Source: Phormidesmis priestleyi BC1401
Lineage (GTDB): Bacteria > Cyanobacteriota > Cyanobacteriia > Leptolyngbyales > Leptolyngbyaceae
NCBI RefSeq assembly: GCF_001650195.1
Contig: NZ_LXYR01000012.1
Span: 1-64,000, forward strand
Reading direction: 5' to 3'
DNA: 64,000 nucleotides
This document shows, piece after piece, positions 54,701 to 58,338 of this stretch. The notes below the pieces were generated by a model, which searched no databases, was not told the origin of the DNA, and saw nothing but the letters and a program-made list of their open reading frames with translations. The translations under genes and the position numbers were made by a program. The number at the start of each line of letters is the position of its first letter. Positions within the stretch are counted from its first letter, which is position 1.

Positions 54701-54748
54701 CACATTTGAGAAAAAGACGCTCGATCGAGCGTCTTTTTCTCAAATGTG
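54701..54748. terminator. Perfect 48-bp palindrome, bidirectional terminator
   Basis: The sequence 54701-54724 (starts CACATTTGAGAAAAAGACGC) is the exact complement of 54725-54748, with no loop. The centre is TCGATCGA, and on both strands the stem ends in a T-rich run (TTTTTC) preceded by GC-rich pairs. It lies between the RRM gene end and the start of the helical membrane protein gene, so it can stop RRM-gene transcripts on the minus strand. Confidence 0.75.
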
Positions 54749-54942: not shown

Positions 54943-55416
54943 TTAAGAGTTGGTGGTTTGAGTCGCCAAGAGTTGCTTGAGTTTCTCAAGATCTTGCGCC
55001 CAGCGTGGGTCAGGTTGAATCGAGTCAGGATTAGCCGATGCCGTGGTGGTCGTGCTGCGGGTCTTAGTATTGGCGTTGTTAGTGCCACCCTTGCGACGAG
55101 CACCGCCAGACGAAGGCGCACTAACCGGAGCGGGTGCACTTCCTTCGGGTTGGTCTTCTGTCTCCTTGGTGCGAGGCAGAGCCTTTTCGATTTTGATGGC
55201 GTTGTCTTTAACTTGAAGACCGTTAAATTTTTCGATCAACTGATCGGCTAACTCATCGGTTTTAACGGTGACAAACCCAAAACCACGACACTTGCCCGTT
55301 TTACGATCGGTAATCAGCTTGGCTGAAACCCCGTCTCCTTCTTCTGCAAACACGGCTTCGAGTTCTTGCCGCGTCAGGTCTTCTGGCAAATTGCCAACAT
55401 ATAAACGAATAGACAT
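54943..55416 (-). CDS. RRM-type RNA-binding protein
   Basis: The 157-residue protein has one N-terminal RRM: RNP2 IRLYVGNL (residues ~3-10) and RNP1 RGFGFVTV (~43-50). An alanine/proline/serine/threonine-rich, basic low-complexity tail (~85-130) and a short C-terminal helix WAQDLEKLKQLLATQ follow. Cyanobacterial RNA-binding proteins (Rbp) of this type bind U-rich RNA, respond to cold, and help place thylakoid-protein mRNAs at membranes; the tail here differs from the usual glycine-rich one. GGAGG precedes the start by 8 bases (CTGGAGGTTCTCACA). Confidence 0.9.
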   Translation of the reverse strand: MSIRLYVGNLPEDLTRQELEAVFAEEGDGVSAKLITDRKTGKCRGFGFVTVKTDELADQLIEKFNGLQVKDNAIKIEKALPRTKETEDQPEGSAPAPVSAPSSGGARRKGGTNNANTKTRSTTTTASANPDSIQPDPRWAQDLEKLKQLLATQTTNS

Positions 55417-55450: not shown

Positions 55451-55657
55451 TTACTTTGAGAGCGTCCACCTGATGTTGGCTAAGGATGGGCTAGATAGAC
55501 CGATGAGAAACTGCCATCCTCCCCTCGCCAACCGCAACAACTCAGGTAATTCGTCAAACTTTAGACGTTCAGCGATCGGCTGACGACTGCCCCCAGATGA
55601 ATTGAGAACAATCTTCCTTAAGTTTTTGGTCACTGCTGGAGGACTCAGGCTAAACAT
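55451..55657 (-). CDS. Possible small protein, doubtful
   Basis: A 68-codon frame starts at ATG 55657 and ends shortly before the RRM gene. The protein is Leu/Arg/Ser-rich and shows no recognised motif; no convincing ribosome binding site is seen. It may be chance reading within the upstream region of the RRM gene. Reported only because the stretch from 55417 to 55810 otherwise has no gene. Confidence 0.15.
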   Translation of the reverse strand: MFSLSPPAVTKNLRKIVLNSSGGSRQPIAERLKFDELPELLRLARGGWQFLIGLSSPSLANIRWTLSK

Positions 55658-55810
55658 TAACTTTCAACTGTTTCCCCAGAATGTTCACGCCATTCTTAAA
55701 GTACCATGCTGACTCACGCTGAACTTCGCCAACAGCAGATTTCCGTCTCTAGCGTGATCCCCGCTTCATAAACTGAACTTACCCCTCCTTTTTTCCTACC
55801 TAAAGGCAGA

Positions 55811-55846
55811 TATAAAAACCAGCCATCGAAACTCGATCGGCTGGTT
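55811..55846 (-). terminator. Terminator of the candidate small RNA
   Basis: On the minus strand AACCAGCC-G-ATCG pairs with CGAT-GGCTGGTT (one bulged base, loop AGTTT), followed by TTTTTATA. It could also end transcripts of the M48-like gene upstream, which stops at 56008. Confidence 0.8.
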
Positions 55847-55948
55847 AAGCTTGCTGTGTTGGGAGGAGAAATAACGAGACCGAGACACTTTAGCCACATT
55901 AATCGCGAGATACAGGACTGAACCACGTCTGGGGGCATCAAACTCCTG
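55812..55948 (-). ncRNA. Candidate high-light small RNA (PsrR1-like)
   Basis: On the minus strand a sigma-70-type promoter (-35 TTGCAC, 17-base spacer, -10 TACATT) at 55955-55983 would start a transcript near 55948. The transcript would end at a U-rich hairpin at 55811-55846, giving about 135 bases with no credible protein. Within it, CGTTATTTCTCCTCCCAACA contains CTCCTCC, complementary to Shine-Dalgarno sequences and likely single-stranded, just before the terminator. An HLR1 (RpaB) site overlaps the -10 box. Size, terminal hairpin, anti-Shine-Dalgarno segment and RpaB control together fit PsrR1, the photosynthesis regulatory RNA of about 131 bases. I have not compared the sequence itself. 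Confidence 0.55.
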
Positions 55949-55983
55949 TAAAGAAATGTAACACTCTAGCGCAGTGGGTGCAA
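55945..55983 (-). promoter_or_regulatory. Promoter with HLR1 (RpaB) site for the small RNA
   Basis: The minus strand reads TTGCAC (55983-55978), a 17-base spacer, then TACATT (55960-55955). HLR1 has the consensus (G/T)TTACA(T/A)(T/A)NN(G/T)TTACA(T/A)(T/A). The sequence GTTACATTTCTTTACA at 55962-55947 matches its two half-sites exactly at the correct spacing, and only the last two positions (GG) differ. It covers the -10 box and start site, the position where RpaB represses in low light. Confidence 0.6.
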
Positions 55984-56007
55984 CTAATCTTTACAAGCTG
56001 GGGTCTC

Positions 56008-58338
56008 CTAAACGATTAGGAACAGCCCAAAGAGAATGGCGGTGCCTGCGAGCAGCGTAGACCAAACTTGGTGCCCACTCCGGCTGATTTGTGCCCCTGA
56101 ACGAACTGTGTCCATATCAATCCAGGGCGTTGCCCCGCGACGAAACCAGCCTGTCACCCGCACAGACTGCCCGACTAGATCAGCGGGACGGGTGGCTTGA
56201 GGAAGCAGATTTCCGATCGCGCCCAACTGCGACAGGTAATGCAGTTTAATCAATCCTTTTGAAGTTTGTAGAAGTAAATCTTGCCCTAACCAGTTGGCGA
56301 TGCCAGCCCGTCCTAGCAGCGTTCCTTCGAGGCGAATGGGTTGACGGTCGATCGGCAGCGCATTGGGGTTTGTCAGCAAGTCTACAAGAGATGGCGAGTC
56401 TGATTCATCTTGTGAAGACGATCGACTCAGCTCCAGATTTTTGAGTTCTGGAAAAAAGGCATTGAAGCGAAGAAAAATTCCGATGCCTAACCCAATCATC
56501 ATGAAGCCTGCAAAAAGGCTGTAATCACTCGCTAGCCAGGAAATTTGCTGCACTCCAAATCGATAGGCGATCTGAGCCGCAAACCAGAGAATCTGAGCGA
56601 CGAGGTATCCCGCCGCGAGTCCAAAAAATGGCGCACCCTGCAAGAGAATCGATCGCGGGTTGCGATGAGACGGCGCTGATGGAAGGTCTATCTCTGGCTC
56701 TAGCTGCCAGTGAAGAGCGTAGTGAGTGAGGCGTTGCAGACGATCGCCCATCAACGAGTGCGAGTTATTCAACACCAGCCAACCTCGATCGGGGTTCACC
56801 AAATCCCAAGCCAGCAGGGACTCTAGAGATGTATACGGATAGACACTGCCTGAACTTAGGGCACTGCGACATCCTACAGGCGTGAGGAGATCAAAACTTT
56901 CTAGCAGATAATCCGTTTTGGCGTCTCGCTGGATGGTTTGAGCCGTTGCGATCGCGCTTTTCACCAACGCCCGAATCAGCCCGTTTGGGTTTCCGGTTAA
57001 ATTGCAGGCAGCCCGATCGCTGTAAATCACTCGCTGTTTTGAGAGCCACAGCCCCGACCAGCGCAGCAGCCAATAAGAACTGTAGCTGAGAGCAGACCCG
57101 ATCGCCAGCAAATCTGCTCCGATGCCGAGCAACACCGCCATAAGCTTACTTTCCCGCTTTCGGAGCGCACTTCTGGCTCGCAGCAAGTCTCCTGCCTCTG
57201 CTGCCTGCCCATAAAGCGCGTAGGGAATTTGAGTGATGAGTGTCACCCAAGACATCAGACTAAAGTCCCAGTGCAGAATATGACCGAGTTCACCTGCATA
57301 AATGGCAGCGATTTCGTCATCCGCCAGTTGGTCGAGCAACCCTTGACTCACCACGATTCGAGAAAATCGCCGCAACGACCCGTAGGTAAACGCCAGAGGA
57401 GCTTGAGACGGCACCACTCCCAGGCGAGGCAACGGCATTTTGTGCTGCTGACAAAAGCGCTGAATGACTCGATAACTTTCTGGGCTATATCCTCCTAACG
57501 TGTTAGCTGAAAGAGGATGCAGGTTATATAGCCCTTTCAGCAGTGCGTCGAGTAGCCAAGGAGAGACGACAAACAACCCGCCCAAAATCACTAGAATCTG
57601 TACGACTGGAATCTCTAGTGATGGAATAGGACTGCTCCAGCGCAAAACACTGGTGATGAATCTGAACCAGAGAAGACCAACTCCGTTCAAAACTGCAAAC
57701 ACGCTGGCGATCAGCAGAAAAAGCCCGATCGGAGTTGCCATTTCTGCCCACTGCAATCGAGCCGGATTGAGTTTATTTAACGGTTGCCAACGCTGCGATC
57801 GTCCTGCACTACGCCAGATTGAAGGGGCTTGAGGCGGAGTAGTGGCGGATGATTTTTTAACGATGGATGGGGGATGGATGGGTGACGGAGACTCTGAATT
57901 CTCGACAGATGGCTGATCTGCTGCCGCTGATTTGGTGGGGGGAATGAAGACCGATCGCGTTCCACTAGCCTCAGACTGCAAGGGAACAAACCCGGCTAAG
58001 TCAGCAGCTTCAGCATCAGAATTCGTCCCCTTGCCCAACGTCGGATAGCGCTGCTCAATCTCCTCTAAGGTCTGACTTGCCCACTCTCTGAGCTTGGCGT
58101 TTGGGCTGTCACGCAACTGTTGGCAGACGGCGATCGCTTTTTTAGGTTGCCCACTTCGCACATAGACCGTTGCCAGCCACATTCGCGCCTTGATCGAGTC
58201 GGGCTGCTCTAAAGCACCCGCTTGAGAGACGAGATATCGCTCTAACTGTTGAATCGCTAGAGGGTAGTTGCCTTGCTTAATCGCTGCCAGACCTGCTTCA
58301 AGATTGGTGCCCGAAGCTGAATCGGGGGAAGAAGTCAT
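56008..58338 (-). CDS. M48-like membrane protein with TPR region, zinc ligands lost
   Basis: The 776-residue protein has an N-terminal TPR-type helical region (GLAAIKQGNYPLAIQQLERY, KARMWLATVYVRSGQPKKAI; residues ~10-105). A Ser/Pro linker leads to membrane helices (IGLFLLIASVFAVLNGVGLL; ILVILGGLFVVSPWLLD), an HtpX/M48-type domain and more helices. The catalytic strand reads IYAGELGHILHW (~residue 347) where HExxH is expected, so the first zinc His is Gly. The distal Glu ligand region reads IYSDRAACNLTGNP. The remaining fold signature is clear. It may be an inactive, scaffold-like homologue. prfC is 34 bases away on the same strand. Confidence 0.72.
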   Translation of the reverse strand: MTSSPDSASGTNLEAGLAAIKQGNYPLAIQQLERYLVSQAGALEQPDSIKARMWLATVYVRSGQPKKAIAVCQQLRDSPNAKLREWASQTLEEIEQRYPTLGKGTNSDAEAADLAGFVPLQSEASGTRSVFIPPTKSAAADQPSVENSESPSPIHPPSIVKKSSATTPPQAPSIWRSAGRSQRWQPLNKLNPARLQWAEMATPIGLFLLIASVFAVLNGVGLLWFRFITSVLRWSSPIPSLEIPVVQILVILGGLFVVSPWLLDALLKGLYNLHPLSANTLGGYSPESYRVIQRFCQQHKMPLPRLGVVPSQAPLAFTYGSLRRFSRIVVSQGLLDQLADDEIAAIYAGELGHILHWDFSLMSWVTLITQIPYALYGQAAEAGDLLRARSALRKRESKLMAVLLGIGADLLAIGSALSYSSYWLLRWSGLWLSKQRVIYSDRAACNLTGNPNGLIRALVKSAIATAQTIQRDAKTDYLLESFDLLTPVGCRSALSSGSVYPYTSLESLLAWDLVNPDRGWLVLNNSHSLMGDRLQRLTHYALHWQLEPEIDLPSAPSHRNPRSILLQGAPFFGLAAGYLVAQILWFAAQIAYRFGVQQISWLASDYSLFAGFMMIGLGIGIFLRFNAFFPELKNLELSRSSSQDESDSPSLVDLLTNPNALPIDRQPIRLEGTLLGRAGIANWLGQDLLLQTSKGLIKLHYLSQLGAIGNLLPQATRPADLVGQSVRVTGWFRRGATPWIDMDTVRSGAQISRSGHQVWSTLLAGTAILFGLFLIV

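Follow-up and report, generated by a model that had tools for sequence, protein, structure and literature searches.

A conserved predicted small RNA gene with an HLR1 promoter in Phormidesmis priestleyi, probably derepressed in high light and very probably not an orthologue of PsrR1

The window that we analysed, a 64,000-nucleotide stretch of Phormidesmis priestleyi BC1401 DNA, very probably carries a real small RNA gene at positions 55811–55947 of its minus strand, and this RNA is a member of an unnamed family that is absent from Rfam 15, resembles PsrR1 in its proposed working and is very probably distinct from PsrR1. Our reading of the whole, to which we give a probability of roughly 55%, is that the gene encodes an RpaB-repressed, high-light-induced, trans-acting small RNA that would lower bilin and phycobilisome synthesis. 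Knowledge of the cyanobacterial light-stress RNA regulon comes mostly from Synechocystis PsrR1; the gene described here encodes a second HLR1-driven RNA, linked to an RRM-protein gene and matched in about half of the 388 genomes of the class that were sampled. If our reading is true, this RNA would be a main light regulator at the post-transcriptional level in lineages that include the filamentous ones, and it would open to testing both how cyanobacteria other than Synechocystis restrain pigment synthesis under high light and whether small RNAs have RRM proteins as partners. The anatomy of the unit, its conservation, synteny, separateness from PsrR1 and predicted pairing were obtained by computation, while RpaB binding, light induction and repression are what we infer.

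The whole unit occupies positions 55811–55983 on the minus strand. The promoter boxes described in the earlier note, TTGCAC-N17-TACATT, are present there, with the −35 box at 55978–55983, the −10 box at 55955–55960 and a spacer of 17 nt, and both recur in homologues (the former as a GTTGCA-like box). The HLR1 that had been placed over the −10 box was likewise found, as GTTACATTTCTTTACAGG at 55945–55962 (minus strand) covers both this box and the start site and agrees with KTTACAWWNNKTTACAWW at 16 of 18 positions, with two mismatches. The start itself is predicted from the −10 box to lie at about 55948–55947. Just upstream of the −35 box there is an inverted TTTACA half-site (55990–55996, reading TTGTAAA on the minus strand), which may be a third RpaB contact or the site of another factor; of 70 homologous loci, 43 have an inverted half-site of the form TGTAA or CGTAA at most 55 nt before HLR1, a count from which L050 was left out and in which L177 and L178 lack a half-site of the listed forms.

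The transcript delimited by this start and by the conserved unit is predicted to be ~137 nt long (55811–55947), in good agreement with the ~135 bases without a protein that had been proposed; in a comparison of six close homologues, no open reading frame proved to be shared. Three elements follow one another along the minus strand: CGGTCTC at 55876–55882, an altered form of a CGGTATC seen 5′ of the core in some homologues (16 of 70 homologous loci have GGTATY in the 45 nt before the core); the near-invariant core TTTCTCCTCCCAACACAGCAAGC at 55849–55871, proposed from homologue comparison as the target-binding region; and a bulged intrinsic terminator hairpin with a U-tract at 55811–55846. In the predicted fold a 5′ AGGAG pairs with the CUCCU of the core within the RNA's own sequence, and CCCAACACAGCAAGCUU is left unpaired. 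Folding of the entire transcript is not more stable than that of its shuffles (z −0.98); folded by itself, the terminator stem reaches a z of −4.7, and together with the covariation given below this upholds the hairpin and U-tract of the earlier reading.

BLAST with positions 55790–56010 gave matches in 17 of 58 related genomes, own genome included, and all 17 loci share an HLR1-bearing promoter, a middle part that varies, the core CTCCTCCCAACACAGCAAG with 0–2 mismatches, and a terminator; the stretch previously read as anti-Shine–Dalgarno belongs to this CU-rich core (55871–55849). A covariance model of the 3′ part, R1, was built from 16 of these loci, with L017 excluded for its long terminator loop, and at E ≤ 0.01 it matched 190 of the 388 class genomes, the weak tail of these matches being partly chance. 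In family f32, inferred to be the Nostocaceae, 104 of 118 genomes matched at E ≤ 0.05, again with a weak tail. The conservation in related genomes on which the earlier note had staked its proposal was thus seen by both routes. One match, in the S. elongatus-like G064 (E 4.5e-4), is a terminator after a leuA-like gene, and the counts at E ≤ 0.01 therefore contain false positives. Among 14 named genomes the matches in Myxacorys almedinensis and Phormidesmis priestleyi are real, and seven weak ones were inspected individually and judged chance. The genome of the window and G001 belong to the same genus.

In 71 distinct homologous loci we scored the 260 nt preceding the core for HLR1; the top site agreed at 15 or more of 18 positions in 67 of them, against an average of about 12–14 in random 260-nt windows from 3-kb loci; in a few loci, such as L016, the top-scoring site differs from the one over the −10 box. 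Identical loci were counted once here, as they were for the upstream element and for covariation. The distance from HLR1 to the core varies from 36 nt (L011) to 143 nt (L007), so the RNA appears to be modular. In the terminator, 97.1% of cells are paired and seven of nine pairs have changed on both sides, values that none of 500 shuffles equalled, in an alignment fitted to the model's own stem. Carriers in families f13 and f16 have a variant core, CUCUCAACAC.

The gene also keeps its neighbours. On the same minus strand, downstream, lies rbp (54943–55416), which encodes an RRM-domain RNA-binding protein (Pfam RRM_1), and upstream lies a TPR/M48 peptidase gene (56008–58338, minus strand; Pfam Peptidase_M48). 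Among the 51 loci with flanks, a sample from which the 20 short loci L177–L196 were excluded, 50 have the RRM gene downstream on the same strand, at 262–604 nt past the terminator (median 401), and the M48 gene precedes the small RNA in 43; the one exception to the RRM gene, L260, was covered over 1.1 kb only. Conservation is poor directly past the terminator, and a fresh conserved block starts near 55711. This separate block (55631–55710, minus strand, nine aligned loci) is probably the promoter or leader of the RRM gene, and the small RNA therefore looks like an independent unit that is linked to rbp. From this linkage the RRM protein may be a partner of the small RNA, in a phylum reported to have no homologues of the enterobacterial RNA chaperones. 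Between the RRM gene and its own downstream neighbour we noted by eye a 48-nt perfect palindrome, cacatttgagaaaaagacgctcgatcgagcgtctttttctcaaatgtg (54701–54748), which is probably a two-way terminator.

Predicted targets were ranked in two samples, 373 genes of the own genome, drawn from the window, from 20 stretches of 20 kb each and from a few loci (about 9% of the genome), and 330 genes of G033, from another genus of the same family; phycobilisome loci were included deliberately, and ho1 entered by chance. By contiguous complementarity to the core, ho1 (heme oxygenase, Pfam PF01126) ranked first of 373 in the own genome and second of 330 in G033, with contiguous pairing between the 9-nt UCCCAACAC (55856–55864, minus strand) and the leader site GUGUUGGGA, 9 bp at −17, which is the same in both genomes and gives a duplex of −16.9 kcal/mol in each. 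By the same measure ho1 tops the 42 orthologue pairs and is followed by apcF, alanine racemase (with a score similar to that of apcF) and cpcB, with apcA sixth; ho1, apcF, cpcB and apcA thus make up four of the top six pairs, there being seven such genes among the 42 (P 0.004, post hoc). Shuffled cores reached the ho1 score in both genomes once in 400, placed ho1 at rank 2 or better in both three times in 400, and matched the mean rank of the bilin/phycobilisome set eight times in 400. In the own genome psaA ranks 7th and psaB 11th, and the scores of apcB and apcD are unremarkable.

The earlier expectation of pairing with psaL and cpc mRNAs held in part, with cpcB among the top six pairs and cpcA weak, while the own psaL leader (that of the first of two psaL genes) ranks 302 of 373 at −6.9 kcal/mol, which lends no support to the proposed repression of psaL. 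The two psaL genes of this genome, L075 on contig C16 and L076 on C9, are different from each other.

When full RNAduplex energies are used for the ranking, ho1 comes no higher than 15th in either gene list, and it was not found in the sampled 1.2 of 2.84 Mb (1063 genes) of the distant G049, and we therefore treat it as a good lead and not as a result. In that genome the top site, of 13 bp, lies before another gene, whose protein resembles by eye a lumenal pentapeptide-repeat protein. Plasmid collections, and viral ones surveyed at the level of matches, yielded no useful cyanobacterial ho1 leader. The ho1 site is known from two genomes of one family, and since conservation of the leader extends past it, something other than pairing may have preserved it; a CU-rich core is also complementary to strong ribosome-binding sites at large. 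Should the pairing take place, the ho1 leaders of those carriers in f13 and f16 that have the CUCUCAACAC core are expected to show a compensatory GUGUUGAG. From the predicted pairing, repression of phycobilisome mRNAs by the window RNA is plausible, and we hold the odds to be even that it would repress ho1 and phycobilisome genes.

According to the review PMC13421787, an HLR1 overlapping the start (−38 to +23) marks a gene that RpaB represses in low light and frees in high light, a rule that is said there to hold for Synechocystis and S. elongatus, and the window HLR1, at about −14 to +4 of the predicted start, lies inside this interval. By analogy, the window RNA is probably derepressed by RpaB in high light. 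In low light RpaB would occupy the HLR1, which covers the −10 box and the start site, and block transcription, and in high light it would leave, so that the ~137-nt RNA would be made and would end at the conserved terminator. The partly unpaired core UCUCCUCCCAACACAGC would pair with the ribosome-binding regions of bilin and phycobilisome mRNAs, ho1 first, then apcF and possibly cpcB, apcA and psaA/psaB, and this pairing would lower their translation and slow the supply of pigment in high light. More speculatively, and with the balance against it, the RNA could be a second RpaB high-light arm in many cyanobacteria outside the Synechocystis group, cutting heme oxygenase and phycobilisome core and rod genes and working with the adjacent RRM protein, with the Nostocaceae running both arms.

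None of the families in Rfam 15 matched the window. Eighteen homologous loci gave no match at gathering, and 18 short homologous loci gave only scattered sub-threshold matches, with E values of 1.8–9.8. An sRNA of the ApcZ type, derived from an mRNA 3′ end, is alike in being a regulatory RNA tied to light harvesting, whereas the window unit has its own HLR1 promoter. PMC8136909 ties a 3′-end-derived sRNA to light harvesting and photoprotection. Yfr1 has a conserved unpaired CU-rich motif, CACUCCUCACACC, that resembles CUCCUCCCAACAC of the window RNA, but according to PMC4734099 it is 54–57 nt long as first described and occurs in every genome analysed in that paper, and the window lacks any Rfam match. 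Literature searches, mostly of open-access text without supplements, returned only an unrelated fish paper for the core 13-mer and its complement, and no name for the window-type family among RpaB/HLR1 small RNAs of filamentous cyanobacteria; the RNA may be an unnamed entry in the Nostoc start-site table in the supplement of PMC4734099.

Like the window RNA, PsrR1/SyR1 (RF02701) has an HLR1 in its promoter, a CU-rich element facing ribosome-binding sites and an intrinsic terminator, and according to PMC6202907 and PMC12850537 it is about 131 nt long (against the ~137 nt predicted here), controlled by HLR1/RpaB and induced by high light in Synechocystis. The description of the window RNA as PsrR1-like therefore stands for the HLR1 in the core promoter and the CU-rich core, and falls for identity with PsrR1, at which RF02701 and two models of our own, R2 and R3, all failed. 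PMC2662882 and PMC6202907 locate PsrR1 in the fabF–hoxH spacer, with a RACE start at 1671919, and print two probe primers, both of which are present exactly in the spacer between the fabF-like and hoxH genes of Synechocystis salina. From S. salina and six further sequences of five relatives we defined the PsrR1 core as GUUUCGGUAUCU..CAUUGAGUUCUCCUA, which is unlike the core of the window RNA; the HLR1-like repeat of S. salina PsrR1 lies over the −35 box, whereas that of the window RNA lies over the −10 box.

In the covariance-model comparison that the earlier note had suggested, RF02701 matched the window neither at gathering nor even at E ≤ 5, and it matched neither 18 homologous window-type loci nor L260, the window-type RNA of a genome that also carries PsrR1. 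The same model gave 68.6 bits for S. salina as a positive control and 44.6–71.7 bits for 13 of 13 other PsrR1-type loci (seven Nostocaceae-type, six Microcystaceae-type). R2, a model of the PsrR1 core, matched 18 of 388 genomes at E ≤ 0.01, nine of them strongly (E ≤ 1e-4) and all nine in family f31, inferred to be the Microcystaceae; one of the remaining matches (L246) proved real. With filters on, R2 found nothing in the 71 window-type loci, and when it was run with filters off for the PsrR1 core UUGAGUUCUCCU it did not pick out the window RNA in L001. R3, which adds L246 and two more f31 members to R2, found PsrR1-type genes, with promoters that look HLR1-like by eye, in seven of 11 Nostocaceae-type genomes searched. 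All seven also match R1 (E 1.4e-6 to 2.0e-11), at different loci, and the window-type sequence itself was inspected in six of them (all but G401). In the own genome BLAST for PsrR1 returned nothing at E ≤ 1, and the best R3 match (E 0.18), away from the window RNA, was judged chance. The RF02701 misses and the presence of both RNAs in the same genomes therefore indicate two separate HLR1-driven RNA genes, and the window RNA is very probably not the PsrR1 orthologue. Likewise, the psaL leaders of five Microcystaceae-type genomes have in common AGGAGAACTC, which is complementary to PsrR1 at −33 to −38 kcal/mol (S. salina PsrR1 was used for all five control duplexes), and this element is absent from the Phormidesmis and Myxacorys psaL leaders.

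Kinship with PsrR1 could still take the form of a divergent orthologue, or of an ancient paralogue split off before the Nostocaceae, which we consider unlikely. Such a relationship would fit the shared promoter logic, the GGUAUY that precedes the core in 16 of 70 loci, the largely complementary distribution of the two RNAs by family, and the best non-self R2 matches, which coincide with GUUCUCCUAC at the corresponding position of L193, L196, L052, L048 and L043 (E 0.18–3.6). Against it, RF02701 passes over the window and its 18 homologous loci and yet matches all 13 PsrR1-type loci and S. salina, seven genomes have both genes at different loci, and neighbours and psaL pairing differ. Misses, co-occurrence and differing surroundings together make orthology hard to keep, and the short shared pieces leave room for ancient paralogy.

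Improbable to a greater degree is an attenuated 5′ leader, in which the HLR1 promoter would serve rbp and the small RNA would be the stopped product. The position of rbp, on the same strand and 262–604 nt downstream in 50 of 51 loci, is what such a leader would need, but the terminator is strong and covarying, conservation is poor past it until a separate block like rbp's own promoter and leader, and attenuation leaves the near-invariant core unexplained. We give very little credence to an mRNA for a small protein, for although a 75-aa TTG frame overlaps the transcript and short frames exist, none is kept in the six close homologues and one of these lacks any 10-codon frame. Chance motifs without a gene seem least credible of all. 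Taken alone, the HLR1 match is no better than chance (one was found in the 64 kb, and 70 of 100 shuffles give at least one), and a simple promoter/terminator scan of the window listed neither a promoter nor a terminator; against this stand the unit's conservation in many families, its covariation and its constant neighbours. It is the conservation, the HLR1 in homologues and the covarying terminator stem that lift the unit above chance, and we retain the reading of an independent, trans-acting small RNA gene.

Several minor observations concern PsrR1 genes themselves. Aphanothece hegewaldii has two RF02701 copies (L231 and L235), and one Nostocaceae-type genome has a HEARO RNA (RF02033, 152 bits; L265, 1012–1231) next to its PsrR1 gene. 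Two f31 genomes have a second terminator-bearing unit with TTGAGTTCTCCTACATAA (L256 and L257, near 1501–1534), about 8–10 kb from PsrR1, which is perhaps a further PsrR1-like RNA. Finally, the PsrR1 core model matches the antisense strand of an apparent cpcA leader, GGGAGATACCAAAACTATG (L254 and L255, near 1501–1544; gene assigned by eye), and thus appears to have picked up a PsrR1 target through complementarity.
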